Positions 12,837-38,523 of a DNA stretch of 64,000 nucleotides are shown piece by piece; position 1 is the stretch's first letter; every line of letters starts with the position of its first letter. The position numbers and the translations under genes are program-made. The notes below the pieces were generated by a model. It ran no database searches. It saw nothing but the letters and a program-made list of their open reading frames with translations, and had not been told where the DNA came from. The DNA comes from Tetrahymena thermophila SB210 (taxonomy: Eukaryota > Ciliophora > Oligohymenophorea > Hymenostomatida > Tetrahymenidae). The DNA lies in the NCBI RefSeq assembly GCF_000189635.1, contig NW_002475959.1, positions 62,001-126,000 of the forward strand. The letters run 5' to 3'.

Positions 12837-13538
12837 TCAAGAAAATACAATGTAAAGGGAATCCAAAAATTATCTTGTTGATCCTCCAAAATTGTTTATT
12901 GTAACAAAACCTCTCTCTTTTAAGATATTTTTAAAAGGTTATCCTCCTTATCCTCCAACTTCTAATTTTCTTTAACTTGTTTTAATTTCTAATCTATCAA
13001 TAGAATCACCTGAGCGCCCAGAGATGCTCTCGATGTGTTCACCAAATTAAAGCTCAATGGTAGATGCATTAACATACCCTTGATAAGTACCTCTACTACA
13101 AACAGTAACAGTATCGAAACCAACTTTATAAGTGCATTATATACCTACAATCATACTATCAGTATGATAAATAGTAATGCTTTTAAGTTCACAACGACTA
13201 ACGTCATAGAATTTTTTATCTATATTAGATTACTCATAGTGATCAAAAAAATTAGAGTAAAAATGAGAATCCCTACCTACCATTTCACTATACTTTGATC
13301 TCATAGATAGTTTAGTTTTATTATAGAAAGAATTTTGAGAATGGGTATTGTTAAATTCAGGCTAGAACTAAGGAGGAGGTGGATATTAACCTTGGTTGCA
13401 CATACAAGATTATTAGCATTTGTTGCATTTATGGCATAGGTGCTATTATTGAGCAATGTTTTAATTTTACTAAGATCTTACAAACTCTTCATTTTTTTCA
13501 TTTATTTTATGAAAAAAGTTACCAATAGCTTTAAACAT
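12837..13538 (-). CDS. Jacalin-like lectin domain protein with Cys-rich N-terminus
   Basis: 233 residues, ATG 13538 to TGA 12837. Residues about 28-44 hold a Cys cluster (CHKCNKCQQSCMC), followed by a Pro/Gln linker (QYPPPPQFQPEF). From about residue 90 the sequence has beta-sandwich character, and its end carries the jacalin signature GEHIESISGRSGDSIDRLEI, followed by GGQGGQPF. Jacalin-like domains bind carbohydrates, often mannose-type glycans. No signal peptide is evident, so it may be cytosolic or exported by another route. The Cys cluster could bind metal or lipid-anchor the protein. A domain assignment to the lectin family is strong; function is not. Confidence 0.8.
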
Positions 13539-15299
13539 TTCTTTTAAGTTTAAATATTTGATTTTATATTTTATTTTCTTATAAATTATAAAATATTTAA
13601 AGATTATTTAGTTGTATTTAAATATAAATTTTGTACTGCTTTCGATTATGGATGTATGGTTTCATTTCTAATTAGGTAGGCACTGATCAGTTAATCTTAT
13701 TAGAAAAATTTGAATTACTTAATTTAATAAGCATAAGTCTTCTTTAATAATCTTGATTTTATCTAATTTAATAAGGAAATAACCCTTTATTAAAATAAGT
13801 AACAAGCAAATTTAAATAAAAATAATAAAAATCAAATATCGAAGTAGATATATTAAAAATCTTTAAAAATATATTAATTGATTGAATGAATAATTAAAAT
13901 GTAAAGAATTTTATTTATTTACTTTAGCTAGCATATTTCATCCACCTTTATTTAATATTCATAATAATGATTTTTATTGGATTTTTTTAAAAAGTGTTAT
14001 TATTTAAAGTCTATAGTAATTGACTAGATTAATTTGGGGAAACTTATATAATTTAGAAGAAAAAAATAAAATATTTTTCAAAATAAATTTTATATTTTGT
14101 AAATAAAATATATTTTATAATAAGACATTAATGGTCTTCAATTTTCTATTTTCAGCATTAAAAATTTTATTTATTTTTGCTAATTGCTGATTTTTTTTTT
14201 TGAAATTGGTATTATCAAGCTTGATTTTAACAAGAATGAATAATCAATTTGCAGACTACTAAATTTTTGATGAATAAAAATCATGATGAATTAAAATTCT
14301 TTTATAAAATGTTAATGATGAATTAAAATTCTTTAATAAAATTTTAATGTTGATTTTTTTAAAGGAAATATCCCTTAATTAAAATAAGTAACAAGCAAAT
14401 TTAAATAAAAATAATAAAAATAAAATATCGAAGTAGATAGATATATTAAAAATCTTTAAAAATATTTTATTTGAATGAAAAATTAAAATCTAAAGAACTT
14501 TATTTTTATTTTAACAAGCAGATTTCATCCATCAAAATAAATTTTATATTTTGTAAATAAAATATCATTTATAATAAGACATTGATGTTCTTAAATTTTC
14601 TATTTTCATCATTAAAATTTTTATTTATTATTGCTAATTGCTGATTTTTTTTTTGTAATTGGTATTATGACAGGAATGAATAACCAATATGCAAATTACT
14701 AAATTTTGAGAATAAAAATCATCATGGAATTAATATATAATTGTTTTGCAAATAGCTCAGTCAAATCTAAAAAACTATTAAAAAGTTAAATTTTTTATCT
14801 TAATAAAATATCGATTCTATATAAAATAAAATGTTATGGAATTAAAAATATTTAATTCACAAAATATTGGCTAAATTTTTTTAACTATATTACTCTTATT
14901 ATTATATAATTGAAACATCCCTTTATTTAATTGAAGCTTAAAATTGTGTTAAGAAAATTCTTAATTTTTGTCAAAAATTATGTAAAATAATATTATAAAA
15001 TAAGATGCTAATTCTATTTTATGTTTCAGGAAATTCTTTTTATATTTATATAAATCTATTTATTTCAAACAAAATTATGGAAATTAAAATTATTTTCCTG
15101 ACTATTAAAAGTCCTTTATCAATCACTACAAACTCAAAAATAATAGCTAAATATTTTGAAAATTTTCTAAATTTTAGTGTTAATTTATGAGTTTTACTGT
15201 ATAGGTATGTATGTACTTAATACAGATATAAACCACTTACGCAAATTAATATATTATTAATTAATTTATTTATTTGTTTATTTATTTTATATATTTTGT
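13539..15299. other. AT-rich region with a duplicated segment
   Basis: Apart from the direct repeat listed separately I see no gene. An open stretch at 15005-15190 has no coding composition. Confidence 0.45.
13773..14710. repeat. Dispersed direct repeat, two copies ~589 bp apart
   Basis: The first copy (about 13773-14265) and second (about 14362-14710) share AAGGAAATA, AAAATAAGTAACAAGCAAAT, ATCGAAGTAGATA and, near the ends, GCTAATTGCTGATTTTTTTTT. The first copy has about 100-140 bp in its middle that the second lacks. Confidence 0.75.
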
Positions 15300-18161: not shown

Positions 18162-19682
18162 TCAAGAATTAGATATCTTATTTTAATTTGATTGTTATTT
18201 AGGTGGTGATTTACTTCGAGACAAGTTAGAAACATTAAAATTCTTCCAAATTACTCTTCTTTCTTGATTCACTTGCAAATCATAAATTATTTATTATTTT
18301 CTTTTTTAGCTTTCTGCTTTATTTTTATCAAATTCTTTCATATAGGTTTTAAACTCTATTTGTTCTCTACTAGGAGGTCTAGCAACCTCTCTTTATTTTT
18401 CTATTTTTTCTTCTAATTTAATCTTTATATTTTCATTTAATTTTTATATCTTTTATTAGTTTTAGATGTGCATTCCTTTGATTTTCTAAATATGTTTAGC
18501 ACTCATTATTAATTTATTGACAAATGCTGTGTTAACAATGTCAGGTTTTTCCAAGCAGTATTATTCTTTTTCTTATTTTTTAAGCTCTACTTGATGCTAT
18601 TTTAGGTTTTTTGAGAAAATTAAAAATCTTGGTTGAAGAGGATCATTTAATTTAGTCTTAAATTGTTAATTTTCATGATTGGGTTAAAGTTAGTTTTAAC
18701 TATTTTTGTTTTATTCTTCTTAAGCATCTTCTTAATCCATTTCTATAACAGCATTTGACTGATTTATTTATGTTATCATTATCTCATTTCCTATGCTATT
18801 ATTTATATTGTCTTAATTTTTTTTTTAATTAAAGGTAAAGGAAGGTAGAATTTTTGCATTTTGATAAGATTTATTTTATAATTGATTTAGTGAATTGCTA
18901 CTATCATTTGTTTGATAATTTTAAGCTATTAGAGCATGATCTTGGGACTACTCGTTAAAGTGACTTGTAATCATTCTAATAAGATTTTTTGAGTTGTAGT
19001 GTTTTGTAGTAAATTCACTCTATTTATCTTCGTTTTTTTAGCATGGAACTATCACCGCATATTTATGAAAATTTTTACTATTTTAAGGCGATTCTTGAAT
19101 AGCATTTTGCTTTGTTAGCCAAGCATATTGTCTTGGAGTTATTTTATCTAGTAAGCTCTGTTTTTATTTCATTTATGAGAATTAATTTATTAGTTTTCTT
19201 CCATTTTCTTTAACCATTTTATCTATATAATTTGGTGTTGAGCAATTTTTGGGTGATTGAGATGTAGGAAAATTAAAACTTGTATTATTTTTTTGGTTTT
19301 CAGGTTCATAAGATGATGCTCTAGGTCTTAAGAAATTGCATATCTCTTAAATCTCTACTTTTTTTGGAATTTATTCTGAATATGGTAAAGGAAACTATTT
19401 AATTAATTTGTTTCTTTGCTACTGTTTGATTTCATCAATAGAAGAATTATGTTATTGATTGTTATCTTTCGATTGAAATACAACTTTCTTTACTTTTTGA
19501 CACCCAAAGCTGCTTTCTTCGATGCATTTCTTTGAAGGAGAAAGAGATTCGCATAGTGCAAGAGCAGATTAGCTATTTGCTTTTAATAGACTTACAGTAG
19601 AAGTAGAAACTGATTGGTAAACCTAATTTTCTTTAATCAATTAATCACAAAATTTTAATCCTTCCTTAGTCTTTTTTATCAT
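18162..19682 (-). CDS. Coiled-coil protein of unknown function
   Basis: 506 residues, ATG 19682 to TGA 18162, one exon in ciliate code. The N-terminal half is Ser/Gln/Asn-rich and looks disordered, with short conserved-looking patches (LLDKITPRQYAWLTKQ; NFHKYAVIVPC). From about residue 355 onward the sequence is highly charged and probably helical: VELKKQEKEQYCLEKPD, then LNENIKIKLEEKIEKQREV, then REQIEFKTYMKEFDKNKAES. It ends in a basic Ser/Pro tail (SRSKSPPKQQ). I recognise no named domain. The composition suits a cytoskeletal or ciliary coiled-coil protein, but that is a guess. Confidence 0.75.
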
Positions 19683-21750
19683 AATTGTTCAAAAAGAATA
19701 TAGAAAGAGAATACCAATAAATTATTAAGAAAATTTGAATTAGGTTTTTTTTATAAAATAAATTCAACGAAAAAGGAGGATTGAATTACACATTTTCTAA
19801 TATAATTATACTTACAATATTTTTAATAACTTTGCTTGTTTTATATTTTGTGATAAAATCTATTTTTCAAGCTTAAATTTCAATGGATGAGAAGCTATGA
19901 TTAATTTTGTTAATGTTAATAGTTAATAAAAAAATAAAGTCTATTAAATTAATAATAAATAAAATCAAATTATTGCTTACAAGTGCAAAAAAGGTTATTA
20001 AAAGTTTAGCATATTAATTAACAAAAATATTTACTTTTATTAGAAACATAATTTTTTTGGCTAAATTAAACATTCTTTATTATCAAAAAAAACCAAGTAA
20101 CTTTGAAATTAATTAAAGGTAAAAGATTATTTAACCATTAAACATAATATCTATCCTTAATAATTTATAAAGGACCAAACAAAATTTTCCATTCATTAAA
20201 ACGTACAAAATATCAATTTAAAAAGCTTACATTTTATCTTCTCATGAAATACATAATTGAAGATTTATTTTTAGACATTTTAAAAATTGTAATTAACTTT
20301 TAAAAAAATGTTTGTTTATAAAAATTCAGAGACTATTTAAAAAATGAAAAAAACCATTAAAAAATTTATAAATTCATAAAAGGTTAATCTATTTACAAAT
20401 AAATTGTAGATTCTTTGTAATTTTTTATATCAAAAAATTAATTGCTTTATTAAAAAAACTTCGTTATTTAATCTATAAAAATGTGAGTAAATATCAAAAA
20501 TTAAATAAATTTATATCAAATATTAAAATATCCTTGTTATTATATCAAAGCCAGTCAATATTTAATTTTTTTGATTGATTTAGATTTCAAAAATTTCTAA
20601 TGAATATTTTAGTAATGGAAATATTAATTTTGAGATTTTTACAAGAGATGCCTTTCGAGCACTGAAATACCAATTTACATTTTTAATTATTTTTGAGGAA
20701 AAAGGCTTAGTTTGAAAGGAATTTAAAAATGTAAAGAGACTTTACTTTATTATATATTCGTATGGAGAAAATAAAATTTTTAAAAATATCAGAAATTTAG
20801 TAGTGGGCAGAGCATTGGCTATTAATATTTATTTAATTTAAAAATCCAACATAAAGAAAGCAAATTAGATTGAATGTGCCCCCACTTGTCAATAAATTTA
20901 TTTGCCTTTTAGCTTGCGGGTTGAGAAAATATTAATATTAAAAACAAGATTTTTAGTTTACTTTTTGAAATTTTAGTAAATTCAACTTTTTTATGTAAGA
21001 TAAAAATGTATTTGTTAGGTGGATATTTTTTAAAAATGCTTGTTTGATAAAAGAATAATACTTGGGTAAAATTAATTCAAAAACTAGACTTTATTCAGTA
21101 GTTTTATACTAAAAAATAAAGCTTTGCAACGAAATCTAAATTGTGACTAATTGAATTAAAATTTAACTCTTCACTTAGATATCCCTGAAATCAAAAAAAT
21201 TCTGGCTTAAAAAGAACTGAGGCTATATTATATAGACCTTCTAATTAGATTTAGTTTATTTGAAGAAGCATTTATTTTTTCTCAATCTAAATTAAATTTG
21301 ATTAATGTAATCTCATTGAAAGATATATTTCCCTTTAAGTATACGCTTAAAATAGAAACTCAAATTACTTGATGTATCTGAATGCTGCTCAGTTTTTATG
21401 AGTAAACCAATTTAAAAATCTTAAGCAAAGGAAATTTATTATTTATAATTAATATTTGAGTAAAAATATCTATAAATTAATATATCATAGAAGAATCTTT
21501 ACACCTATCTATTTCCAAATAGATAATTAAAAATTAATATCATCCTCACTTATTCATTCATTCATAGGCTCACTTAATCATTCATTCATTCACTCTTAAG
21601 TTCCATAGTGATATTTAATTTAGAAGATATTCTTCTCTTAACCAGTTTCTAATCATTAATAAAAAAAATTTATAATAAAAACAAATTTTAAATTATCACT
21701 TTTCAAGAATATCAAATATTCATTCTATAACTAAAAACTAAGTAACTTAA
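19683..21750. other. Long AT-rich intergenic region
   Basis: Divergent spacer between the genes at 18162-19682 and 21751-23874. The part 20520-21420 is somewhat less AT-rich, and its minus strand is almost free of TGA, but the implied protein is of the Phe/Ile/Leu/Asn/Lys type expected by chance, so I do not call a gene. ATTC repeats lie near 21546-21592. GTGGGCAGAG (20815) and GTGCCCCCACTTG (20876) are the only GC-rich patches. Confidence 0.4.
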
Positions 21751-23874
21751 ATGAGCTTGTGTGCTTTTTCTCAACAATTCCGAAGCGACAGAATGAAAAA
21801 ATCACTTCATTTCTCCTCTAGTAAAACTTAAACATAAGATGATGAATTAAATAAAAGTCAATACTAAAATGAATACATAAATAAATTTATTCAATATATA
21901 TCTAAATCCCCACTAAAATAATAAAAGAAACATGAGGATTCTCAACCTTCTGTGATATTATTAAAGAATATCAACCTTAAACAAAAGAATTTAGCTGAAG
22001 AATAATAATCATAAAATTTACAAGACCAATCTCAAAAAAAATAAAAAGAAAGCAGCATCATTCAAGACTATATTGAAATGAAAAAGAGACAATAAATTCT
22101 TCAAATTTATATGAATGAATAAACAATTATGGACTCTGTTTAATAAAAAATAATTAATCCAACTTCCAAGTAAAAAAATTATGAAGAAACTCAAAAATCT
22201 TTTAGTGATTGCAAATAAAATTCAAAAAATCAGAATATTTTTTAAAAAACACACAACAACAGCAGTTAGAATATTCAACTTGATAATGTTGATTTTTACT
22301 CCAGTTGTCGCCCAGTTTTAACAGAGTAAAGTAGCGAGAGTTTTCGTTATGGTAATTAACCTAATAAATGTCTCAGAAGTATTTAAAAATATTTGCATTA
22401 GAGTTAATAATAGGTTATACCTCAAGATATTGAATTAGAAATCCAAAAATTAAATTAGAAGAGGAACAATTAAGAAAACAGTAAAAATAAATTAGTAGAT
22501 ACTTCTATTTTATTTAATAATTAAGCTTTGAATCATTTAATATAGCCTAAATCTGCAGTGTAAAGTAATACCAAAGAAGTTAAACATTTCAATTAATTGC
22601 TCACAACATCTACTGCAGCTGCACCCAAGTTTACCTTCCTTGAAAAGTAGTCTACTAACCCTAATTTATTTAAGCAGAAAGATAATTCATAGAGAAATCT
22701 CTTCGACATTCGTTAAACTTAAGTGTTAAAGGACAAATAAATAATCAATGATTTACAAATTAGCTCCTCTTCTTAGCTGAACCCTACTGAAATGTACAGC
22801 ACCCAGATAAATTAATCTTTCAAAACATCTTTCACAAGAAGAAACATTAGGTCCTACTCTTAGAAAACCGAAGAAATACCATGCAAAAACTAAACTATGT
22901 ATTTGCGTCCACCTTATAGAAGATACAATGCTGATTAAGAAGAAAGTCTTCATGATTCGCCTTTAAATGAAAGCAGTATTTAAAATACTAAGAACACTGT
23001 TTAATAAACTCGCAAACAAACAATAAATAAATTAGTGAAATACTTCAATACAATAGCTGATTTCAAATAGGAATCTCTTAAGCAAATTAAAATGAACAGA
23101 ATTGAATCTAGAAATTTTGTTTTTTCTTAAAATAACGATGATGTTATTCAAAGTTATGCATAAATAATAAGTAAAAAGTAACTTAACAGCTCTGAATCTG
23201 AAGAACTAAATAGCATAGATACAACTTCATTAAATCAAAACGAGTAGACTTTTAAGACTCATCGTCACAACTTAGATTATAGCACTGAACTTAGTCCTAT
23301 TATCACTGATTTTTCAATTGATAAAATAGATTTTAAATCAAATGTTTTAGAGAATATGATTGATTCCACTGAATTAATAGAATCTAATTCTACATTTACA
23401 TCTTGCACTGTTTCTCCTAAAATACGTCCAAGGTATTCTATTAAAAATATAGAAAATGAGGAAAAAGAAGAAGAAGAAATTATGAAGAAATAATAAAGAA
23501 GTTCAAAGAAGACAATAAAAACAGAAGACAGTGCAAACAAAAGAAGAAAATTACTAATCTCTTCATCCTTAGCTGCCAAGGATACTCAAAAACAAATAAA
23601 AGCAGAGCAATTAATAAATTCATAAATTTTTATAAATAAGTCTTTCTTATAATCAAAAGTACCAAAGAGAAAGCAAAAGAAGACTAATATTATAAACCAA
23701 AGCCTTGAAGTAGCAGCAGATTAAACAAAAAAAGTAGTTCTAAAGAAAAAAGATAACAAAATTAAATTAAATCCAATCGAATAAAAATAAAATAGTTATA
23801 TCATAATGCCTTCTCAACAAAATAATAATTAAAATATCAGCAGCGTCCTTCAAATTCTCAAAACAATATCATGA
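21751..23874 (+). CDS. Large Gln/Asn/Ser-rich basic protein, unknown function
   Basis: 707 residues, ATG 21751 to TGA 23872, a single exon with dozens of in-frame TAA/TAG codons and no internal TGA. It is low-complexity and strongly Gln/Asn/Ser/Lys-rich, with short motifs such as TMYLRPPYRRYN and SCTVSPKIRPRYS. An acidic Glu run (EEKEEEEIMKK) precedes basic clusters KKTIKTEDSANKRRK and VPKRKQKKTN that look like nuclear localisation signals. No folded domain is recognised. A nuclear, disordered protein is the simplest reading; a role in chromatin or transcription would be speculation. The gene is divergent from the coiled-coil gene at 18162-19682. Confidence 0.75.
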
Positions 23875-25460
23875 TATATATATATATTCGTAAGCAACTA
23901 ACAAAATACAGACATCTCTCTTAAATCCTTTTCTCAAAAAAATAAAAGAAAATAACCAACTAACTAACTAACTAACTAATTAACAAATAAATCAATAAAA
24001 ATTATATTAACAAAACATTTCTCAAAAAATTAAAAATAATATAAAAATCTCTCTAAAAAAATCAAGCAAAAAAATATCTCATTTATTAATTTAAAATATA
24101 AAAATATTTATCAAAAAGTAAATTAAAGTATTTATCAAATATTCAATGTAAATTTTTATCCATATCAAATTTTTATTCTTAGTAACAAAATAAATTCTTT
24201 CACTCATAAATACCTAGTTTTTAATTTATTTATTTACAACTTTAATACGTATTAATTATTAACATAAGTCCAGTATGATCTTTAAATTTCCTTCTTCTTC
24301 TATTCTTACATTTCAAGTTTCTAATTAAATTTATCCTTTCCTATAAATTTTAAGATTATTCATAAATAATTTTAAATCTGATAAAGACACTTTATTAATT
24401 TTATTATTTCTTTCTATACTTTTCCTTTTTATTTTTTTAAATAAGATTAGTAGGTAAGCAAAAAATAATTTTATTCTCACCATAATCAAAGATTTTAATA
24501 AAAAAGAATGAATAATGTAGTTTTTATTGACGATTAGAGAGATATAAATTTCATTTATTTTTATTTACTAAATTATTCGGATTGTTACTAATATGATAAA
24601 TAGGTGCTAATTTTGGAAATTTTAATCAGATCTTACTTCTTTTCTATTGTATTTATTAATCTAAATAGGCAAAACTCAAGCTCAAAAAATAATTAAAATT
24701 GATAAAAATCCTATTGATGCTTTTTATTCAATTTATAATTTCACTAAACAATATAAAATAATACTGATTTTAAAGTGAAAAATAAAATTTTTCTATAGTA
24801 AATATATAAAACAAATTGACAACATTTTTATTTCATATTGTGTCAATTTTAAAAATTAATATTCAAATGATTAATGGATTAAATGTAATTATTTGTAAAC
24901 TTACTTGAGAATAAAATTTTATAATGTTAATGAGATTTGAACAAGTTTTTTATTTATTGAAGTAATTCAAAATTAATCTATTTAACTATTTTAACTCTAG
25001 ACACATTAAATTAGCTTTATAAAGCTAATCTGATAAAAGCATTTAAACTCAAATTTAAAAATATGAAATACAGTTTGTATACAAAAAGTAGGCTATTGCT
25101 GATATCATCTGCAAAAGTTTAATTTTACAAAATAAGAATTAATTATCTCATTTGTTAAATTTAGAGTTATACCATATCACCTCTATTTTTTTAACTTGCA
25201 AGGTAAGAATAATATTCAAAATATTTATATTTACCATTTATACAAACTTTTATATTTATAAAATAATGCTATCAAAAAATAATAAATCACATCTAACTAT
25301 TCATTAAGTTAAATATATTATGTATTCATATAATTGATATTTTTATCAGCGTTTAAAATTGAAAAAAATCATCAAAAACAATAGACATGACATGATTCAA
25401 ATAAAATTTTTAATAAATTTTTACTAGTTTCTAGAAAAATAAATTATATTAAAAATAAAA
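23875..25460. other. Convergent AT-rich spacer
   Basis: Holds an ACTA microsatellite (about 23957-23980) just after the upstream stop and otherwise nothing recognisable. Confidence 0.45.
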
Positions 25461-26987
25461 TCATTCTATAACGATGCAATTACTAATTTCCTCTTCATGA
25501 TATTTATGTTAGCGGTCAGGATTTTTTAAAAGAAATATTTTCAATTATAATTTAGCTTCTTAAATACTTTTCAAACGTAATTAATATTCACTATCTATTA
25601 ATTGACTTTTAAGTAATATATTTTCTTGATCAAGCTTTTATATTTATTTTTAGTAGACTTAATCTTAGCTTACAATAATTGGCTTAGTAAAAGGTTTTTC
25701 ATTTTAAATTATTACTTTTTAATTTATTTTAACAGGATTTATGAACTATTAATCCTTATTTTTTTCTTCAATATCCTCTTCTTCTAATAGAGTTAAGTCT
25801 ATTAATTATTTGTTATTGCTTTATTTAACACATTATTTTTCATTTTTTTGAAACAGCTAATTTTAAGGAGAATATATATATTGTTATGGATTTGAAGTAT
25901 TGACTTATTTGTTTTGCTTTAAAATACTTTCATTACTTTAAACCTATTTTTATTCTAGTTATTATTAGTAACTATTTTAAAGTTCCTCTATATCCATAAG
26001 CATTTTCTCAATACCTTGTTGAATATGAAATGAATTATATGTCTAATTAATAGGTATATTCTATTTTTGTCTTTATTCATTTTTTGAATGAACTTACTCG
26101 ATTTAATCTAGTATGTCCTCTAATACTTTATTATGTTGTATTTAAATTTAATCGTTTTATTAACTTTTATTCTAAATTTAATATTGACTTTCTTTGCTTT
26201 GATTCATATTGTTTTTAGAATATTATAAATCACCTAAACTATTATTATTGTTATTATAAACCTTTTGCTAACTTTAATTAATTGAGATATTACTTAAATT
26301 CTATTATTTTTCAATCTATACATTTTTTTTATCTTATAATTTTTCTTCAAAAAAGAATAAATTCTAAACTTCAAAGGAATCTATATCTATTTATAATTTT
26401 TTATTCTAGTTTGTCTACATATCTTCTCTTGTAATTATCTAACAACTTTATGAATTACCTTCGTTTTACGAGTCAATCTAATATATATTTTGTTACTTTT
26501 TAAGCTCATCAATTGATAGGAAGTGCATAAGTATAAAAGGTCCATATCGTTATCTTTGATCCCCAATTTATGATTTTAATCTTACGAGTCTTAATTAGAA
26601 GTTTTAAAGTTCAGAGTTTTCTTAGAGTAATTATTTTTTAGCATTTGCTTAGTTAAAAATAATATCATCTAAATATTTATTAGCTATATTCAGCACATAT
26701 CCAGAATACTAAAATACTATTCTGAATTTCCAATTAAAATTTTAACTAATTAGTAAGCAAGTATTATGCTTAATTTATTTGAAATCCAACTCTATTTCTT
26801 CTAATAAATCATAATTATCAATATTTTTTTAAATTTATTCAAATTCCTATTTATAAAATTAATTTATTTCATGTAATTTTTATTCATCTAGCTCTCCAAT
26901 TTAACTTAAGTTATCTGTATCATATTTTGTCAATTTGTAATCAATTTAAAAGTACTTTATCTTCTTTTTTTGTAGTAATTCTGTCAT
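25461..26987 (-). CDS. Tandem family member A (divergent, longest)
   Basis: 508 residues, ATG 26987 to TGA 25461, one exon. It is the most diverged member of a six-gene array. The N-terminal domain is recognisable by HEINQFYKQEFEQIQKNID, IKHNTCLLI, NWKFRIVFQYSGY, FQLRLVRL and RYGPFILMHFL, each aligning with the same block in members B-D. A long Gln/Asn-rich linker follows (about residues 165-410), then a helical segment (YQKQIQKLDQENILLKSQL) and the family C-terminal motif, here LLKNPDRQHKYHEEE. No catalytic motif, signal peptide or membrane segment is visible. It lies 3' of member B with about 670 bp between them. Confidence 0.82.
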
Positions 26988-27652
26988 TTTCTAAATAAAT
27001 ACAATATTTTGTCCAATGTTTATTTACCTAAAGATTTATATTTAATTAAAAAGCTTGTTTACCAAAAATTTATAAAAAAGCAAGTTAAAAAATAAATTTT
27101 TTTGATAATAAAATCTGATTCTATCAACAAAAGTTTTAATAAATTAAATATGAAAAATTTTTGAGGTAAATAATAATAAAATTAATGTCATTTATATTAA
27201 GTAAGCAAGTTGCTGCATATGATTTTAGAATATTTTGTTAATTGATATCAATTTTACTAAAAATTAAAATTTGCTAAGCAAATATCACCATTAAAAGTCA
27301 TTTTCAAAATAAAACCATTCAAAAATTTGCTATTTTTATTTGTATTTAACAAAATATAATAGCTAAAAAGATAAAATAGTTTTTACAATATCTTTATAAT
27401 TAGTATTTTATAAAAAAATGTGTTTATATTTTTTCCTTTTATTTGATCTCTCAATTCTGATTAAATAAATACTTATTAAAAATGTGTAAAATTGGTGTTA
27501 AATTTAAAAAATAAAATAATAATTAATTGAAAAGACTGAATTATTTGACATAAAATATAGATATAAAATAATATTATCTTATAATTTACTACACTTATAT
27601 TTACAATTTAATTATTTAATATATTTTTATATAGACTTACTAAGAATTTCAA
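26988..27652. other. Spacer between family members A and B
   Basis: AT-rich. The upstream flank of A (about 27100-27350) is also found beside the relic at 30.3-30.55 kb, and the 3' flank of B (AAAAATGTGTAAAATTG..., GACATAAAATA) is found before members C and D. Confidence 0.6.
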
Positions 27653-28984
27653 TCAATCAATCTCTATTGTTTCACTTTTTACATCATCTCTTTTAAACTT
27701 TTTATATGGCTCATAGTCAGGGTGTTTTAAATAAAACATTCTCATGCTTTCTTTAGCACTTTTTAATTTTTCTCTGTTTAATTCAAATTCAAGATCTTTT
27801 ACTTTATTTTCTAAATAACTGATGTACTTATCTTTTTGACTCTCTGATTATTAGTCATGTTCTTATTTGCAATAAAAATTTCCTCCGTTTGAGGCTCTAT
27901 GACTTTAATTGCTATGAATATTTTAGTAACTATTTGATTATGGTTTCTCATAATTAAAAGACAACTCTTAATTCGGTTTAACTTAGCCTATGTTTAATTA
28001 AGGAACTTCATTTATACCTATTTTTTCACTAATTGAGCTACTTTGAAGATTAAATTACATTGAGTTTTACTGTTTGTTAATTGTATTCAAATTTATTCGT
28101 TCGTTTTAGGAAGTTTATTAGTCTTATTCTTATAAATTAATAGTCATGCTATTTTAATCGTCTTAAATTAATTCGTTGTTATCATCTCTAAACCTTTACT
28201 AATCATTATTGATGAATTTTTTTTCATTTTTAATTGGATTTTTAAAAAGCAGATTTTCTTATTCTTATTAATTAATTGGTGTTGAATGCTATTGGTATTC
28301 TTCCTTAGGTTTTTATATGAATTATATTGTATTAGAGTTATTAGAATAATCTTCAATTTATTTTTCTTAGTCAGTTTTCTATTTTTAGTTGGCAGAGGTT
28401 TTATTTTCATCTATTTTACCTAAGTTATCAGCTTTGTTTTAACTAATTTAAATATTTTAGGCTTGTTTAAATTATTTTGAGCAATTTTTAAGCTAATTTC
28501 TACATAAAAAGTGACATATCATGAAATCACCATATTTTGTAGAAGCACTTCGATGTTCAGGATCTATTTACTTCACTATTCTAAGTTCAAATTTACTAAG
28601 ATTTGAGTTTTATCTCTCAACTTTTTTTAGTTAACTTGCTTAACAGTATCTAAATTCTTTTAATTCTATAGATTTATTTCTACTCTCATAACCGTATTTT
28701 TAAAAAATAAGACTAAAATTCCATGTATTGTTGGTTCCAATTAAAGCACATGTATTATGTTTGATTTATTCAGGATCAATTTCATCAAAATTTTAAAATA
28801 AATGATATTATTCTAGCTTTTCTTAAATCTCTTCAAACTAATTTTTGTAAAACTCATTTACCTCTTCCATAAAATTTTCATCATGCTTTGGGTCTTAACC
28901 TCTTTTGAAATTAATAATGTCACTTAGCTATAATTTATATTGGATACTAAAATATTATATTTTTTCTTGTCTTTAAACTTACAT
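27653..28984 (-). CDS. Tandem family member B
   Basis: 443 residues, ATG 28984 to TGA 27653, one exon. Family blocks in order: EEVNEFYKNQFEEIQEKLE (near residue 45), QIKHNTCALIG, TWNFSLIFQKYGYESRNKS, RYCQASQLKK, ELRIVKQIDPE and KYGDFMICHFLCRNQLK (ending near 170). A Gln/Asn-rich linker follows, then a coiled-coil-like helix (YISYLENKVKDLEFELNREK), MFYLKHPDYEPYKKFKRDD and a terminal EIEID-like tail. It is closest to members C and D. The conserved Cys and His in HNTC and CHFLC are suggestive but do not match a known metal site. Function unknown; recent paralogy is clear because whole blocks and flanks align. Confidence 0.87.
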
Positions 28985-30039
28985 TTATTTTGGTACAAAT
29001 TATTTTCTTTTTGTTATTTTCTTAATTAAAATATATGATTAATCAATTAATCAATCACCTTTCAAATATTGATAGCACTTAATGCTTTTTTTCTGCTTAT
29101 TATATCAAATACAAGCAAAAATCTTTTTTCGTATAAAATCTCTTTGTTTTTCTCAAAAAAAGTTTAAAATTTGAGAGAAAATATTTTTATTTCAAAGACA
29201 AAATTTAAAGTAGAACGAAAATTGCAAACTAATATTTGCTTATTAAAAAAATAAATATAATATCACTTAAATTTTAGAAGATTCATTTAATTAATTATTA
29301 TTATTACTATCTTTATTCTTATCTATCCTCAAAATATTCAAAATAATATTTATTTATCAAAATAATGAAGCTTTTATAAAATTCAAATAATTAAAAACTA
29401 AAAAAATAAAATGATTATTAAATTAATTCTTTAGAAAAAATATGCTGCTCAATAATAAAAATATAATTGTATATTATTTATTATTTCTAATTTAATATTT
29501 TATTCTAAAATTTACATCATAATAATATTTCAAGATTAAATACCTACTTACCTACCTACCTATCTTTCTCTTTAAATCACTGAGTAAGAAATATAATTAT
29601 TTCTTTGATTTTATAAATTCGATAAATTAAAATATTGAAATTCTCTCAATAATTAATTTAGTTTTTTTATTTATTTTATTATATGTTAAATAAATTTATT
29701 ATTCTTTTTTAAATTTAGTTAAAATACCTTATTATATTTTTTGCAAAATTTTATTTAGTTAATATATAATTTATTTAATAAAATTATATAGAAGTAGGTC
29801 AAATCTTCTTTTGATTAGGATCATTTTTAGAAAATTTTAATGTCAAGCCAAAATTATCATAAAATTTGAAAAAAAGTTGATTGTTAATTAAGAAGAAATA
29901 CAGCATTTTGATTGGTATTTATTTATAGCTTTAAATTTATTATAAATTTTATATTTTTAAATGATTCAAACTATAGAAATAATTCAAATAAAATTTATTA
30001 CAATTGTTTGCCTTAGATTAAAAATAAAACTATTTTATT
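28985..30039. other. Upstream flank of member B
   Basis: The first ~650 bp matches the regions upstream of C and D (GTTATTTTCTTAATTAAAAT..., GATTAATCAA..., AAATCACTGAGTAAGAA), so promoter and 5' UTR were duplicated with the genes. A CCTA microsatellite lies near 29545-29560. Confidence 0.6.
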
Positions 30040-30550
30040 ACAAAATAATTACTATCTTGATTTTTGTGTTAGTTAGTAATCAGGATTTTCTAAATAAAAT
30101 ATTTTCAATGATAATTTAGCTTCCTAAATATTTTTCAAACATAATTAATATTAAGTATGTTTTAATAATTTATTTTTGAGTAATATATTTTGTAGATCAA
30201 GTTCTTATATTTATTTTTGGTTCACTTTATCTTAACTTATAATGATTAGCTATGCAGATGGTTTTCATTTTAAATTAGTTCTTTTTAATTTACTTTTAAT
30301 TATGAAAAATGTTTGAGATATTGTAAATAATAATAAAAGAGATATCAGAGAAAATATATAAAATATCAGTGGAACTAATATCATTACATTAAATGAGTTA
30401 GTTGCTATAGTTGATATTAGAATATTTTATTAATTGATGCCAAGATTACTAAAGATTAAAATTTGCTAAGGAAATATGATTAATAAATAAATAGTCGTTT
30501 TCAAAATCACAGCTTTCATAAATTCTAACAAAGTTTTGCATTTTAATTTG
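30040..30550 (-). pseudogene. Internally deleted copy of family member A
   Basis: 30060-30300 closely matches the last ~240 bp of member A (TTTTCTAAATAAAATATTTTC..., AGTAATATATTTT..., GGTTTTCATTTTAAATTA). It then passes directly into sequence matching the region upstream of A (ATGAAAAATGTTTGAG..., AGAATATTTTATTAATTGATG). The central ~1.2-1.4 kb of the gene is absent. This is a dead gene copy lying where A would lie relative to member C. Confidence 0.75.
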
Positions 30551-30796
30551 TATTTAATAAAATATTATGTAATATTGATATGATAAATTTTACATTTTAT
30601 ATTCTTTACTTTTCGTTTATTTCTCAATTCTGGCAGAAAATATATATAATAAAAATGTGTAAAATTGATGTTAAAAAATTAAAAAAATTAAAGTAATTAA
30701 AGTAATTAATAGAAAAGAATTATTTACTTGACATAAAATATATATAAAATAATTTTACAATTTAATTATTTAATTTATTTTATTTAAGAATTTCAA
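30551..30796. other. 3' flank of member C
   Basis: Aligns with the 3' flanks of members B and D (AAAATGTGTAAAATTGATGTTA; TTACTTGACATAAAATA). No gene. Confidence 0.5.
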
Positions 30797-32095
30797 TCAA
30801 TCAATGTTTATTGTCTCATTTTTTATATTATCTTACTTAATCTTTTTTTATGGCTCATAGTGAGGGTTATTTTAACGAAACATTCTCATTATTTCTTTAG
30901 CATGATCTAATTTTTCTTTTATTAATTCATATTCAAGATCTTTTACTCTGTTTTGTAATTATTAAATGCGGTTCTCTGATTATTAGTCATATTCTTATTT
31001 GCAATGAAAATCTACCCCGTTTGAGGCTCTATGATTTTAATTACTATGAATATTTGGTTAACTACTTGATTATGGTATCTCTTATTTTATCAATAGCTAT
31101 TAATTCTGCTCAACTTAGCCTATGTTTTATTAAGTAACTTCATTTATACCTTATATTTAACTAATTGAGCTGCTTTGAATATTATGTGACATTGAGTTTT
31201 GCTGGTTGTTAATATTCAAATTTATTTGATTGCTTTAGGAAGTTTATTAGCTTTATTCTTATAAATTAATTGCCATTCTATTTTAATCATTTTAAAATAA
31301 TTCATTATTATTATCTCTTAACCTTTACTAGTCACTATCAATGAATTAGTTTTCATTTTGGTTTTGACGAAGTAGTTCTTACTAATTAATTTGCGATGAA
31401 TGCTATTGGTATTCTTCCTCAGGTTTTTATATGAATTCTATTGTATAAGAGTTATTAGAATAATCTTATTGATTTAAGTCTCTATTCTATTATTATTTCG
31501 CAGAGGTATTATTTTCATCTACTTCTCTCAACCCATTAGCTTTTTTTTGACTGATTTAAGGTTATTAGGTTGATTTAAATTATTTTGAACAACTTTTAAG
31601 CTAATCTCGACATAAAAAGTGACATAACATGAAATCACCATATTTCTAAGAAGTATTTGTTGGATTATCAGGATCTATTTACTTCACTAGTCTGAGCTCA
31701 AATTTTTAAAAATTTGAATTTTACTTCTCATTTTTTTTTAGTTAACTTGCTTGGCAGTATCTTCCTTCTTTTAATACTACAGATTTATTTCTACTCTCAT
31801 AACCAGAGTTTGAAAAAATTGTACTGAAATCCCATGTGTTTTTGGTTCCAATTAAAGCACATGTATTGTGTTTGATCTTTTTATGATCAATTTCCTTAAA
31901 ATCTTAAAATAGATGATATTATTATAGTTATCCTTAAATCTCTTCAAACTAATTTTTGTAGAAGTCATTTACCTCTTCCAGAAAATTTTCATCATATTTC
32001 TGGACTGTACCTCTTTTGAAGTTAACAATGTCACTTAGCTGTAATTTATATTGGATATTAAAATATTATATTTTTTCTTGTCTTTATTCTTACAT
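30797..32095 (-). CDS. Tandem family member C
   Basis: 432 residues, ATG 32095 to TGA 30797, one exon. It shares with B the blocks EEVNDFYKNQFEEIQ, KIKHNTCALIGTKNTWDFS, GYESRNKSVVLKEGRYCQAS, ELRLVKQIDPD and KYGDFMLCHFLCRDQLKS. The Gln/Asn-rich linker keeps many of the same short words (KPEEEYQQHSS; RASNGVDFHCKQEYDQQSE). The helix IQQLQNRVKDLEYELIKEKL and the end MFRQNNPHYEPQKKIKQDN close the protein. It is B's nearest relative and sits in the same position relative to the A-like relic, so A'-C is a copy of A-B. Confidence 0.87.
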
Positions 32096-33007
32096 TTATT
32101 TTGGAGTGAGTTTTTTTCTTTTTATTATTTTCTTAATTATAATTAATATATGATTAATCAATCAATCTCCTCTCAAATATTAATAGCAAACACTGCATAC
32201 TTTTTTTTTTTCATTATCTAAAGTAGAAAAAAACTCTTTTAAAAAAAATCTCTATGTTTAATCAAAACAAACTTAAAATTTGAGATAAAATAGTTTTATA
32301 TCAATAACAAAATTTAAAGTAGAATGAAAATTGCAAACTAATTTAAAAAATAAATATAATAATTTAAAAGATCTATTTATTTGTTTATTTATTTAATTAT
32401 TATGTTATGCTTGCTTAACTATCCTCAAAATATTTCAAAATAACATATTTAATAATATTAAAAGGTTTTATAAAATTATAAATACTTAAAACTAAAAAAA
32501 TAAAATATTTATTTCATTATTTCTTTTTAAGAAAATACGCTCAATATTATACAATTTCATATTATTTATTATTCCGAATTTAATAATCTATTCTAAAATT
32601 TACAAAACAATAATACTTCAAGATTAAATATAAATATATATCTTTTTCTTTAAATCACTGAGTAAGAATTATAACATTTTATTTGATTTTATAAAATTGA
32701 TAATAATTTAACGTTTTATTCTAAAATTTAAATAAAAAAATAATACTTCGAGATTAAATATATATCTTTCTCTTTAAATCACTGAGTAAGAATTATAATA
32801 TTTTCTTTGATTTTTTTAAATTTCTAAATTAAAATATTGAAATTCTCTCAATTATTTTAGTTTTCTTATTTATGTAAAAGTTGTTTTACGAACTCATAAA
32901 AAAGGTATTGAATCTGATTAATAAAACAAACAAAGAAATACTTATAAAATCCATAAAAAACTACAAATTATAATATGTCCTCAAAAAAAATATTTAGATT
33001 TAATGCT
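32096..33007. other. Spacer between members C and E, with a ~130-bp tandem duplication
   Basis: The part next to C repeats the B and D upstream flanks. Near 32605-32820 a block (TCAAGATTAAATATA..., TCTTTAAATCACTGAGTAAGAATTATAA) occurs twice, about 130 bp apart. Confidence 0.6.
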
Positions 33008-34069
33008 TCAATCTACTTAAATAGGATCATTTTCTAGTAAGCCTTACGGATTAAAATTTGGGTTTTATTAGAAGAGCTTATCTTCCTTCATTTTCAAAAT
33101 TATTTTTTAATATTGAATTTCCTTATATTAGTTGTTTTATTCTTTTTACTATTGTAGTGAAATTTATTATGATAGCTATGACTATAGTAGCTCTACTTTT
33201 TCTTTATCAGAAAGTTGTACATATTCTTCCTTTACAAAATTCACTTTTTAGAGTTAAGGTTTTATTATATTGTTATTATTTTATATGGTTCCTTCTTTAT
33301 ATAGAAGATTTTGATTTTGACTCTCTTCAACCTTCGTTTTTATTTTAGGTTGTAGACTTTCGTTTATATTATTATTAGATTATAGTTCTTAAGACCTATC
33401 ATTAGATTTTTAAGCGCCGATACATTCTTTATTAACAATTTACTGCTAGTTTGTTGCTAAAATTTAATTCATTTGTTATTAATTTTTCTCATTAAATTTT
33501 TAATCATATTTATGCAAATTTGTTTACCTTTTATCATGCTTTTTTTAATAAGCATATTCCTAAGTAAAATCCTACTCATGGCTTGCCTTTTATTTTTCTA
33601 TGTTTTATTTGCTACTCTGATTAATGCTGTTAGGTTAAAGTTAATTTTTATCAAAAAAATGTAGAATTATATACTCTCCAATTTTACTAGATTTATTATC
33701 TACATTTTCATCATGACGCTTTACTATTCTTAATGTTAAATTAACTTATTTTGAAAAACTTTAATTCCATTTTATTTAGTCTTATACAAAAAATTTATTT
33801 GAAATTTAAAGGCACTTTAGCTTTTAGAAAAGATTTTTAAAATCCCATGTAACATTTTTATCTGCAATAAAGAATGAGTTATGTACAATTTTGTATTCTA
33901 CATATAGTTTATCTATTTAATGACTTATGTTTTAGTATTATTTAGTATCATTAAATATTGACATGTAAAAATTGTTGAGCTTCTTTCTGTATTCTTACAA
34001 TTTCAACTCTTTATTTTCTGATTGATCTATTTAATTTGGTTCTTTGATGTCAAATTCTTTTGAAAACAT
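33008..34069 (-). CDS. Tandem family member E (second subfamily)
   Basis: 353 residues, ATG 34069 to TGA 33008, one exon. It forms a subfamily with F but shares the family layout: KKLNNFYMSIFNDTKQYQ, YKIVHNSFFIADKNVTWDFK, LTLRIVKRHD, KIGEYIILHFFDKNQLQ, a Gln/Asn-rich linker, a Gln-rich helix (LSDKEKVELLQSQLSQQISL) and the end KLFQQNPNFNPQGLLEND. The HN, TWDF, LRIV and HF positions match members B-D. It is interleaved between C and D, so the array alternates the two subfamilies. Plus-strand open frames inside this gene are shadows. Confidence 0.85.
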
Positions 34070-34749
34070 TTTTAAGCCTACGATTATGCTACCTCTTCTT
34101 AGTATTGCTTTTTAGTTGGTCTAATTTTTTTTTAATTCTTTTATCTATAAAAAACTATGAAAATCAAATAATAGTTCAAGCAAATCATATAAATTAAAAT
34201 TCTAAATGATTATTAGAATTAAATAATTATAATATTTTCCCAATTAATAATTAAATTATTTATATTTTGGCGCATATAATCTTTATATTTTAGAATCAAC
34301 TTTCAAATATTTTAACTAAATTATATAAATTAATTCATTATTTTAAAGAAATTCTCTACCTATAATTTATTGTAATTAAACTAAAAATGTTTATCACCAA
34401 AATATATTTTTATTATATTTTATAGTTGAATTTATTCTATTAAGTCTGTTTTTCTAACTCAAGAAATAATTTTCTATATAATAAATTTTACATTTTATTT
34501 ATTAATAAATAGTATTTTGTAAAATGATATTCTAAATTTTAAATTAAACATTCTTTCCTTATTATTTCTCAATTAAGGAAGAAAATGTATTAAAAATGTG
34601 TAAAATTGATGTTAAAATTAAAAAAATAAAAACAATAATTAATTGAAAAGAATGATTTACTTGACATAAAATAGGTATAAAGTAATATTATCTTATAATA
34701 TTATACTTATTTTTACAATTAATTATTTTATTTATTTTTACTAAGAATT
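34070..34749. other. Spacer between members E and D
   Basis: The first half matches the region upstream of F (37762-38150) and the second half matches the 3' flanks of B and C. No gene. Confidence 0.55.
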
Positions 34750-35922
34750 TCAATCAATGTCTATTGATTTTGTATCATCTTTTTTAAGCTTTTTATATGG
34801 CTAATAGCCAGGGTTACTTAAAAGAAAAATTTTCTTTTCTTATTTAGCACTTTATATTTTTTCAACTGTTAATTGATACTCAAGATCTTTTACTTAAACC
34901 TCAAGAGCTTATACTTTATTTTCTAACTTTTTAATGTACTAATCTTTTTGGATCTCTGATTATTAGTCATATTCTTATTTGCAATTAAAATCTCCTCTGT
35001 TTGAGACTCTATGACTTAAATTACTATGAATATTTTGAGAATTATTTGATTATGGTATCTCTTAATTAATAGGTAACTATTAATTATACTCAACTTAGTC
35101 TATTTTTTATTAAGGAACTACATTTATACCTTCTGCTTAACCAATTGAGCTGCTTTGAATATTAAGCTACATTTCGTTTTAGTTAATTATATTCAAATTT
35201 ATTTGCTCGTTTTAAGAAGTTTATTAGTTTTATTCTTATTAATTAATTGCCATGCTATTTTAATTATTAATATCTCTTAACCTTTATTAGTCATTATTGA
35301 TTTCTTCCGTAGGTTATTATATGAACTATGCTTAATTAGAGTTATTAGAATAATCTTAATTTTAGTTACTTGAGTTATTATTTTATTATTGTTATTGAGA
35401 GGTATTATTTTCATCTACAAAACTTTTCAGCTGACCTTGACATAAAAAGTGACATAATATGAAATTACCATATTTAGAAGAAGAATTTGGATGTTAAGTA
35501 TCTATTTACTTCACTATTCTAAGTTAAAATTTACTGATATTTGAATTTTACTCATGACTTTATTTTAGTAAACTTGACTGGCAGTATCTAAATTCTTTTA
35601 ATTTTATAGATTTATTTTTACTGTCATAACCATTATTCATAAAAATATGACTTAAGTTCCATGTGTTTTCTTTTCCAATTAAAGCGCATGTATTGTGTTT
35701 GATTTTTTCAGTATCAATTTCTTTAAGTTCTTAAAATAAATGATATTATTGCAGTTTTCCTTTAATATCTTCAAACTATTTTTTGTAGAAGTCATTTACC
35801 TCTTCCAGTAAATTTTCATTATACATTTGATCTTAACCTCTTGAGAAGTTCATAATATCATTTAGTTATAATTTATAAGGGATACTAAAATATTATATCT
35901 TTTGTTCACTTTAGTCTTACAT
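34750..35922 (-). CDS. Tandem family member D
   Basis: 390 residues, ATG 35922 to TGA 34750, one exon. Closest to B and C: EEVNDFYKKQFEDIKGKLQ, KIKHNTCALIGKENTWNLS, NGYDSKNKSIKLKEFRYCQS, QLRIVKQID and KYGNFILCHFLCQGQLKS. The linker is about 45-60 residues shorter than in B and C, with deletions that keep the frame, which suggests the linker tolerates length change while the ends are constrained. The C-terminus is IFLLSNPGYQPYKKLKKDD followed by SIDID. No function can be assigned. Confidence 0.86.
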
Positions 35923-36714
35923 TTATTTTGGAGTGAATTTTTTTCTTTTTCTTATTTTCTTAATTAAAATAAATTATTAATCAACCAATATCCTCTCAAC
36001 TATTTAAAGCAAGCACTAAATATTTTTTTTCTGTTTATTATCTAAAATAGGAAATAAATCTTTTCTTCAATTAAGTCTCTTTTTTTTCTCAAAACAAGTT
36101 TAAAATTTGAGATAAAATAGTTTTATTCCAAAAAAAATTATAATAGATTGAAAATATCAAATTAATTTAAAAAATGAATATAAAACCGCTAAAAATATAG
36201 AATATTCATTGAATTAATTCATTATAATTATTATTATATGTTTATTTTTATCAATCCTCAAAATATTCAAAATAATATTTATTAATCAAAATAAAAAAGC
36301 TATTATAAAATTCAAAGTACTAAAAAGCTAAAAAAATAAAATGATTATTAAATAAATTATTTTGGGGAAATATATATGGTCGATAATAAATATATAATTG
36401 TATATTATTATTATTAATAATTATATATATATAGTACCCTAAGGTACTGCCTTTTTCTAGGCTACATACACGAATAGTAATAAGATTTATATTCAGAATA
36501 AAAATATTTTCTTTGATTTTATAAATTTGATAAATTAAAATATTGAAATTTTGTCAATTAATTTAGTTTGCATATTTATGTAATATCTATTTTACGAATT
36601 TATAAAAAAGGAATTGAATTTGAAAAATAAAACACTTAAAGAGATACATAAAATCCATAAAAAGCTACAAATTATATATAATATGTCCTAAAAAAAAAAT
36701 GTAGAGTTAATACT
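35923..36714. other. Spacer between members D and F
   Basis: It matches the C-E spacer up to about 36420 and after 36490. Between these is unrelated, less AT-rich sequence with a small hairpin (AGTACC 36433-36438, GGTACT 36443-36448). No gene. Confidence 0.55.
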
Positions 36715-37761
36715 TCAATCTAATTAAATAGGATTACTTTCGATTAAGCCTTGTGGTTTAAAATTTGGGTTTAATTAGAAGAGCTTCTCTTCCTATATTT
36801 TCAACATTTGTTTTTTTTATTGAATTAGCTTATATTAGTAGATTGATTCTTTTTATTATTGCAGTAAAATTTATTATTACAGTTATTGCTCTAGTAGCTC
36901 AACTTTTTCTTTATCAGAAAGCTGTACATATTCTTCCTTAACAAAATTCACTTTTTAGAGTTAAGGCTTTATTATATTGTTATTATTCTTTATGGCTCCT
37001 TCTTTATAAAGAAGATTCTGTAATGGACTATTTTCAACCTTAGTTTGGCTTTCGTTTATATTATTATTAGATTATAATTTTTAAGGCATATCATTAGAGA
37101 TTTAAGTGCTGGTATTTCCTTTATTAACACTTTACTGCTAGTTTGTAGCTAAAATTTAATTCATTTGTTATTAATTTTTCTGATTAATTTTTTAATCATA
37201 TTTATCTAAATTTGTTTACCTTTTATCATGCTTTTTTTAATAAGCATATTCCTAAGTAAAATCCTACTAATGGATTGTTATTTATTTTTCTATGTTTTAT
37301 TCGCTATTCTGATTAATGCTGCCAGATTAAAGTTGTTTTTCATCAAAAAAATGTAGAATTATATACTCTCCAATTTTACTAGATGCAGATTTTACAGTTT
37401 TATCATGAAGCTTTACTATTCTTAATGTTAAATTAACTTATTTTGAAAAACTTTAATTCCATTTTATTTAGTCTTATACAAAAAAATTATAACTTGAACT
37501 ACTGCATTTTAGCTTTTAGAAAAGAATTTTAAAATTCCATGTAACATTTTTATCAGCAATAAAGAATGAGTTATGAACAATTTTGTATTCCTCATATAGT
37601 TTATCTATTTAATGACTTATGTTTTAGTATTATTTAGTATCATTAAATATTGAGATGTAAAAATTGTTGAGCTTTTTTCTGTATTATAACAATTTCAACT
37701 ATTTATTTTCTGCTAGATCTTTTTCACTTGGTTCTTTAATGTCAAATTCTTTTGAAACCAT
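36715..37761 (-). CDS. Tandem family member F (second subfamily)
   Basis: 348 residues, ATG 37761 to TGA 36715, one exon. It is a near copy of E: KKLNNFYISIFNDTKQYQN, YKIVHNSFFIADKNVTWNFK, LTLRIVKLHDKTV and KIGEYIILHFFDEKQLQ, then a linker full of the same words (QEYAYQKKHDKRQTNLDKYD) and the end KLFQLNPNFKPQGLIE. Differences from E are substitutions plus small in-frame gaps, so the reading frame has been kept. D-F thus repeats C-E as a block. Confidence 0.85.
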
Positions 37762-38523
37762 TATTAATCTACTTAAAATTATATTACCTCTTCTTAGAAT
37801 TGATTTTTAGTTAGTCTAATTTTTTTGCTCTTATATTTTGTTTACTTAAAAATTTTTAATTTCTTTTATCAAAAAAAAAAAACTTTGAAAATCTAATAAT
37901 AGATTAAGCAAATCAATAAAAAGAAATTACTAAATGATTAATATAAATAATAAAAATATTTTACTAATTAATAATTAAATTTTTTATATTTGACTCATAT
38001 AATCTTTATACTTAAGAATCATATATAAATTAATTATTTTTAATTAAATTCTATTCAAACTTTTCTCTTTATACTAAAAATATGTTCACCAAAACATATT
38101 TTTAAGATATTTTATAGTTGAAATTTATTTTATTTTGTAAATATTTAGAAAAAATTGCAATAAAACATGTAAAATTTGGTAAAAAAGCAAAATTTTGAAA
38201 AAAGCATTAACTAAAATATTAAAAGAGCAGAAGTAAGTACCTTTTTATTTTATTCACAATATTTAAATAAAATTAAAATTTTTGGATTAAATAATTTTTT
38301 TAAATTTCGTTTTATTCAAGTAAGATATAGGATTAAAAAAAATTATTTAGAAGTTAGTTTATTCATTAAATTAGAATTTATTACTAAAATTAAAATCGAA
38401 ATATAAAAATATTGTTTATTAATTCAGTTAATTATAGAAATAATAAAATACATATTTATTTATGATATTAATAAATTCATTTAAGTAAAAATTTTAATTA
38501 CGTTTATTTATAAAATGCAAAAA
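37762..38523. other. AT-rich divergent spacer
   Basis: The first ~370 bp resembles the region upstream of E. The rest is AT-rich without features; it separates the array from the plus-strand gene at 38.5 kb. Confidence 0.45.

Follow-up and report, generated by a model that had tools for sequence, protein, structure and literature searches.

A tandem family of fast-evolving genes with an unrecognised N-terminal domain in Tetrahymena thermophila SB210

Six consecutive genes on the minus strand of contig NW_002475959.1 of Tetrahymena thermophila SB210, found within a stretch of 64,000 nucleotides (positions 62,001 to 126,000, hereafter the window), belong to a tandemly arranged family whose N-terminal domain is not recognised by the searches described below. 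These genes have been named A to F in order of increasing position, and their open reading frames (ORFs) were read with NCBI genetic code 6 (Table 1). The translation reproduces the positions and lengths given for them in a preliminary description of this DNA, made without database searches. All six frames are closed by TGA and contain 40 to 71 in-frame TAA/TAG codons each. The starts of D and F are uncertain because the frame upstream of their ATG codons (34070-34147 and 37762-37866, minus strand) is open and alike in both genes (NQTNQK-ILRRG), and translation may in fact begin at an earlier position or in a preceding exon.

Table 1. Position of the family genes, their parts and duplicated blocks, and other features (window positions unless a contig is named)
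Feature	Position	Strand	Description	Basis
Gene A	25461..26987	-	508 aa, own subfamily	ORF and translation
Gene B	27653..28984	-	443 aa, subfamily B/C/E	
Gene C	30797..32095	-	432 aa, subfamily B/C/E	
Gene D	33008..34069	-	353 aa, subfamily D/F; start uncertain	
Gene E	34750..35922	-	390 aa, subfamily B/C/E	
Gene F	36715..37761	-	348 aa, subfamily D/F; start uncertain	
N-terminal domain	28489..28984 (gene B)	-	roughly the N-terminal 143-166 residues in A-F	AlphaFold2
Block B	27180..29625	-	gene and both flanks, 77% identical to block C (30373-32703) over 2.5 kb	blastn self-comparison
Block E	34476-36594		75-78% identical to parts of block B	blastn self-comparison
Block D	32789..34441	-	83% identical to block F (36495-38134) over 1.7 kb	blastn self-comparison
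Relic of A-type gene	30013..30299	-	between C and B; C-terminal part only, original stop lost	
Genes G1-G5	C176:12231-23998	+	five family genes, subfamilies alternating (loci L031, L032)	
Relic on C176	C176:19141-19515		C-terminal fragment only	C-terminal HMM, E 1.5e-7
Genes H1-H3	C248:26454-35830	+	three family genes, N-domains within 26454-34944 (loci L033, L034)	
UBR box ORF	1165-3747	+		domain match
Jacalin-like lectin domain ORF	12909-13550	-		domain match
Utp21 ORF	57342-57902	-		domain match

The proteins encoded by A to F can be aligned end to end, and consist of an N-terminal domain (N-domain), a linker of variable length, and a C-terminal segment. The motifs [KV]HN[TS], LR[IL]V, [YI]Gx[FY][IM]xxHF, and N-x-F-Y are present in each of the six N-domains, while the fifth motif of the preliminary description, TW[DN][FL], holds for only five of them, as A carries NWKF at this place. 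The N-domain of A is detected by a hidden Markov model (HMM) of this domain with an E-value of 2.1e-53, although A itself is among the sequences used to build the model. The Gln/Asn-rich linker is also present, with a Gln/Asn fraction of 0.31-0.43 versus 0.15-0.20 in the N-domain. However, this richness is ordinary here, because the fraction in nine neighbouring coding segments (0.13-0.35) reaches 0.35.

Three subfamilies can be distinguished in the window. Identity of the N-domain to that of B is 76% for C, 67% for E, 36% for A, and 25% for both D and F, while D and F are 79% identical to each other. Counted along the window, genes 2, 3, and 5 (66-76% identity to gene 2) form one close group and genes 4 and 6 another, with gene 1 standing apart, which replaces the grouping proposed before. 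Across the subfamilies of the whole family, identity to B is 22-39%. A phylogenetic tree recovers the same subfamilies, although the branches of D/F and of the genes on another contig (H1-H3, see below) are long and their placement may be false.

The six genes are not the full extent of the family. The genome (101 Mb in 445 contigs, of which C428, with 367,094 bases, holds the window at 62001-126000) was searched with one N-domain at a time (those of B, F, A, H3, and G3), and the gene counts are lower bounds. At least 14 genes were found in three tandem arrays: the six of the window, five on contig C176 (G1-G5), and three on contig C248 (H1-H3). The genes of the window and of C176 keep an open frame from start to end. 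The H genes probably contain introns, predicted because coding segments go on after the frame breaks observed in them. A motif with an invariant proline, [NYH]P[DNGH][YFR], is found in the C-terminal segment of all 11 complete proteins. This C-terminal module alone is too short to reveal further members, because a query of 58 residues returned only B, C, and E from the genome. Several candidates have been discarded. At the loci on C209 (marginally similar in protein, E 0.25) and on C398 and C308 (two short similarities in DNA), the N-domain HMM scores at most 6.8 bits. An ORF taken by eye for a distant relative (C248:22708-24138, minus strand; L033:2708-4138) retrieved only itself from the genome and is not listed by the N-domain HMM up to E 10. 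This ORF holds two internal repeats that are 69% identical in DNA along about 600 bases, and has no Pfam match. In viral contigs searched with protein B, none of three candidate stretches was confirmed as a relative.

The arrays have grown as blocks were duplicated together with their spacers. Apart from the blocks of the window (Table 1), self-comparison detected 76% DNA identity between C176:13506-16947 and 18925-22376, and 82% between C248:25322-27988 and 30108-32815, so that the duplicated units include spacers in all three arrays. The window also holds a relic of an A-type gene, missing from the preliminary description, which is 79% identical in DNA to 25444-25732 and is detected by the HMM of the C-terminal segment with an E-value of 1.4e-14. 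The subfamily of this relic was assigned from DNA identity, and that of the relic on C176 by eye. In the direction of transcription, the order in the window is F-E-D-C-relic A-B-A. One possible reading of this order is a unit of an F-type, a B-type, and an A-type gene that occurs three times over, some of its members having been lost. The order on C176 is X-Y-X-relic X-Y-X, where X stands for G1, G3, and G5, and Y for G2 and G4. The suggestion that the family is recently expanding fits the block duplications, which show 12-25% DNA divergence, but not the subfamilies, six in number, which are old (22-39% identity to B, as mentioned above).

Judged by the way in which they diverge, the genes encode real proteins, because insertions and deletions mostly keep the frame in coding DNA and mostly do not keep it in the spacers. 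In six pairs of paralogs, 30 of 33 coding gaps are a multiple of three, versus 28 of 100 in the flanks (Fisher p 1e-10), and the frame-preserving gaps noticed in the preliminary description thus go beyond chance. As the three pairs within B/C/E share part of their history, four non-overlapping pairs (B/C, D/F, G2/G4, and G3/G5) were also tested, with 16 of 18 coding gaps against 16 of 61 (p 2.5e-6); in the G2/G4 alignment, the coding part of G2 was taken to begin 75 bases before the ATG on which the other analyses of this gene are based. Coding identity is higher than flank identity in five of the six pairs, the sixth being G3/G5, with only 54 flank columns. Moreover, neutral simulations (400 per pair, in which substitutions followed the spectrum seen in the spacers) acquired a TGA stop in 69-98% of the runs, and the real frames have none, although they had been chosen as open frames.

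The ratio of nonsynonymous to synonymous substitutions (dN/dS, Nei-Gojobori) points to purifying selection that is real but weak. It is 0.60-0.78 in eight of nine close pairs and 1.09 in H1/H2, the values for the H genes being based on only about 200 codons. When the N-domain is taken separately, dN/dS is 0.44-0.60 in the B/C/E pairs and 0.36-0.39 in A/B, A/G2, and G1/G3, and these are the six of nine comparable pairs in which it falls below that of the linker.

The absence of a known domain, already stated in the preliminary description, has been upheld in Pfam, NCBIfam, PDB sequences, and Foldseek. The Pfam scans covered the six full-length window proteins and the 14 N-domains of the family. 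For the former, nothing better than E 2 was obtained; for the latter, 16 mutually unrelated families appeared with one or two members each (best E-values 0.0065-0.6), which were taken as chance. The same applies to the five NCBIfam families matched by one N-domain each (best E 0.036). No PDB sequence matched protein B at E <= 10, and with the model of its N-domain, Foldseek gave nothing at E <= 0.001 in the PDB (best E 0.33, with TM scores up to 0.36 among the best 50 matches) or among viral models (best E 0.15). The family was named in no title found in the literature, although the sequence of a family plays no part in a search of this kind.

The fold predicted for the N-domain is of the alpha+beta type, with no matching known fold. 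In the AlphaFold2 model of B, obtained from the six window sequences, a helix (32-55) is accompanied by strands at 78-83, 99-107, 111-118, 132-139, and 154-161, and by a short helix at 90-96. The best of five models reached a predicted local distance difference test score (pLDDT) of 74.5 (range 55.9-74.5) and a predicted template modelling score (pTM) of 0.75. A model of full-length F repeats the helix, the first strand, the short helix, and the last two strands of the B model. In F, residues 145-281 fall below pLDDT 50, and a C-terminal helix is predicted at 283-330. The helical C-terminus proposed before is thus a prediction from AlphaFold (pLDDT 56-71).

The best explanation, to which a probability of roughly 0.4 is given, is that of a lineage family evolving by gene birth and death, whose products would be soluble intracellular adaptors. 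The family, which is probably lineage-specific, would spread and decay by duplication of DNA blocks. In each protein, the folded alpha+beta N-domain would recognise a partner, the floppy Gln/Asn-rich tether would give reach according to its variable length, and the terminal helix, with the [NYH]P[DNGH][YFR] motif and a short tail, would hold the protein to its paralogs or to a second partner. The soluble location is proposed because no membrane-like stretch was seen in the 11 complete proteins or in the N-terminal parts of the three H proteins, where the mean hydropathy over 19 residues peaks at 0.12-0.88. If mixed assemblies form, the interleaved subfamilies would keep partner types together, although block duplication alone would yield the same interleaved order.

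Several results weigh against this explanation. The selection claimed in the preliminary description agrees with the ratios below 1, but these are high, and neutrality was rejected (one-sided 5% in the simulations) in only four of the nine pairs, namely B/C, B/E, G2/G4, and H1/H3. Besides, D/F and G3/G5 have a higher dN/dS in the N-domain than in the linker, and G2/G4 has about the same value in both. The model of full-length F is poor (pLDDT 46.2, pTM 0.34) and lacks the two middle strands of the B model. The reading of the C-terminus as a coiled coil is weakened because heptad periodicity was significant in none of the 11 C-terminal segments (p 0.11-0.96).

Some of these data would fit decaying duplicates, mostly functionless, whose frames survive by recency. 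The high dN/dS, with 1.09 in H1/H2, the five pairs in which neutrality was not rejected, and the existence of two relics are in line with this alternative. It is nevertheless considered unlikely, as coding gaps stay in frame far more often than those of the spacers, motifs are kept between subfamilies of only 22-39% identity, and most neutral simulations gain a stop.

Slightly less likely is that the proteins act in chromatin, as descendants or mimics of histone H2B in which the long helix and the next segment would copy alpha2-L2-alpha3, with a beta domain and a disordered tail added, and which would dock on nucleosomes or pair with H2A. H2B was the top PDB family for the 14-member N-domain profile, with E-values of 0.12 (single H2B) and 0.014 (fused double H2B); a shorter profile gave 0.06 and 0.0044, respectively, whereas the reversed profile gave a best E-value of 1.4. 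With hhalign, in which H2B was represented by two sequences of the same genome and two other H2B sequences, the score was 23.9, whereas 100 column shuffles did not exceed 14.4, and values of 11.1 and 11.3 were obtained with the reversed profile and against histone H3, respectively. The likeness consists of a colinear N-x-F-(4)-F-E-x-I ... EI ... LL over about 75 columns; the invariant N43, F50, and I74 and the near-invariant F45 fall within the matched stretch, and B, C, and E hold KKxK stretches near the tail. However, the hhalign probability is only 9.9%, and TRACeR-I, an unrelated protein, reaches nearly the same E-value (0.061) on the matched helix. The four H2B sequences obtain only 10.2-11.7 bits, which corresponds to E 2-6 in a database as large as the PDB, and the H2B of the genome itself, with 8.4 bits among 2713 own ORFs, ranks behind an unrelated ORF. 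When the profiles of B/C/E, A, or D/F are used alone, H2Bs take ranks from 22 to 805 of 2004, intermingled with shuffles, and without the H group the best H2B scores 7.1 bits. Pfam Histone (PF00125) listed none of the 14 N-domains at E <= 10, although the filters of HMMER hide most weak matches, and its 14 matches in the whole genome include no array gene. Regarding structure, the family differs from H2B in its added strands, linker, and C-terminal helix, the AlphaFold models do not show the three-helix histone fold, and the segment that would be alpha3 is a strand in both of them (78-83 in B and, with low confidence, 65-70 in F; both models are based on only six sequences). A more specific version, in which the N-domain would be a remodelled H2B-type fold plus a beta sheet, and the proteins multicopy, fast-evolving, histone-derived adaptors of the nucleus, encoded by genes that multiplied in tandem in an organism with two types of nuclei, is a little more doubtful still.

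Clearly less probable is a relationship with the PIAS/Siz SUMO ligases, in which the proteins would be readers of the SUMO pathway with a diverged PINIT-like domain and SUMO-interacting motifs (SIMs), and without SP-RING. This identity was raised from the strand-like motifs and the SIMs of the tails. Residues 395-408 of A contain one candidate SIM-like stretch (LIDLTLLEEEDIEE), and several tails finish in short acidic-hydrophobic sequences. Nonetheless, shuffled A yields 0.5 matches to the loose SIM pattern on average, and of the other proteins, D, F, and G1 contain the pattern too, whereas B, C, and E lack it. The seven genome matches of zf-MIZ (PF02891), the SP-RING domain, all lie outside the arrays, and the predicted long N-terminal helix followed by strands differs from the order generally known for PINIT. 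The PIAS identity is unsupported. The search with PINIT (PF14324) itself gave no match and is uninformative, because its control found nothing either. A PIAS-like gene with SP-RING (zf-MIZ), and with a PINIT-like stretch by eye, is present at another locus of the genome (L043).

Least credible is an association with PCNA through a PIP-box-like motif directly after the N-domain of the C176 group (the strict match QIMLTRYF in G1, KLTNYF in G3 and G5, and TIYNYL/TIDNYL in G2 and G4), a weak proposal confined to that group that cannot explain the family because A to F have no strict match; elsewhere, only G1 (two sites, with 0.15 strict matches expected by chance) and G3 (one) have any, the remaining ones lying inside the C-terminal motif.

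As for the surroundings, the UBR box, jacalin-like lectin, and Utp21 neighbours place the window array among ordinary genes; four other long ORFs were checked and gave no match at E <= 0.01. The contig C428 starts with a telomere, at a distance of about 87-100 kb from the array, and the array of C248 lies about 26 kb from a telomere. Both contigs start with CCCCAA repeats, as expected for macronuclear chromosomes, and none were found in the first 400 bases of C176. These repeats, together with a GC content of 15-27% along the window and the in-frame TAA/TAG codons, fit a macronuclear genome of the Tetrahymena kind.

The birth-and-death family of putative adaptors can be compared with the young genes of Tetrahymena described by Xiong et al. 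2019 (PMC6564038). According to that study, species-specific genes are often tandem, fast evolving, and weakly expressed, their top domains are LRR, TPR, WD40, kinase, CNBD, GFR, and P-loop NTPase, and the Ka/Ks medians of the youngest genes are 0.25-0.30, with about 0.4 for LRR genes. The family differs in that none of these top domains was credibly found in it (best single-member E 0.0065 or weaker). Its dN/dS is also higher than those medians, although the methods differ. The likeness resides in the strict tandem order, here in arrays of six, five, and three genes, in a Ka/Ks that is raised but below 1 in all close pairs except H1/H2, and in amplification by local duplication. The family thus fits this documented kind in arrangement and fast evolution. 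Unless the H2B resemblance is real, it opens no long-standing question, but it adds to such genes a clear record of block duplication and two conserved modules, whose motifs can serve as anchors for ortholog finding and for tests. Tandem, fast-evolving lineage genes having already been documented (PMC6564038), the new element is the unrecognised domain.

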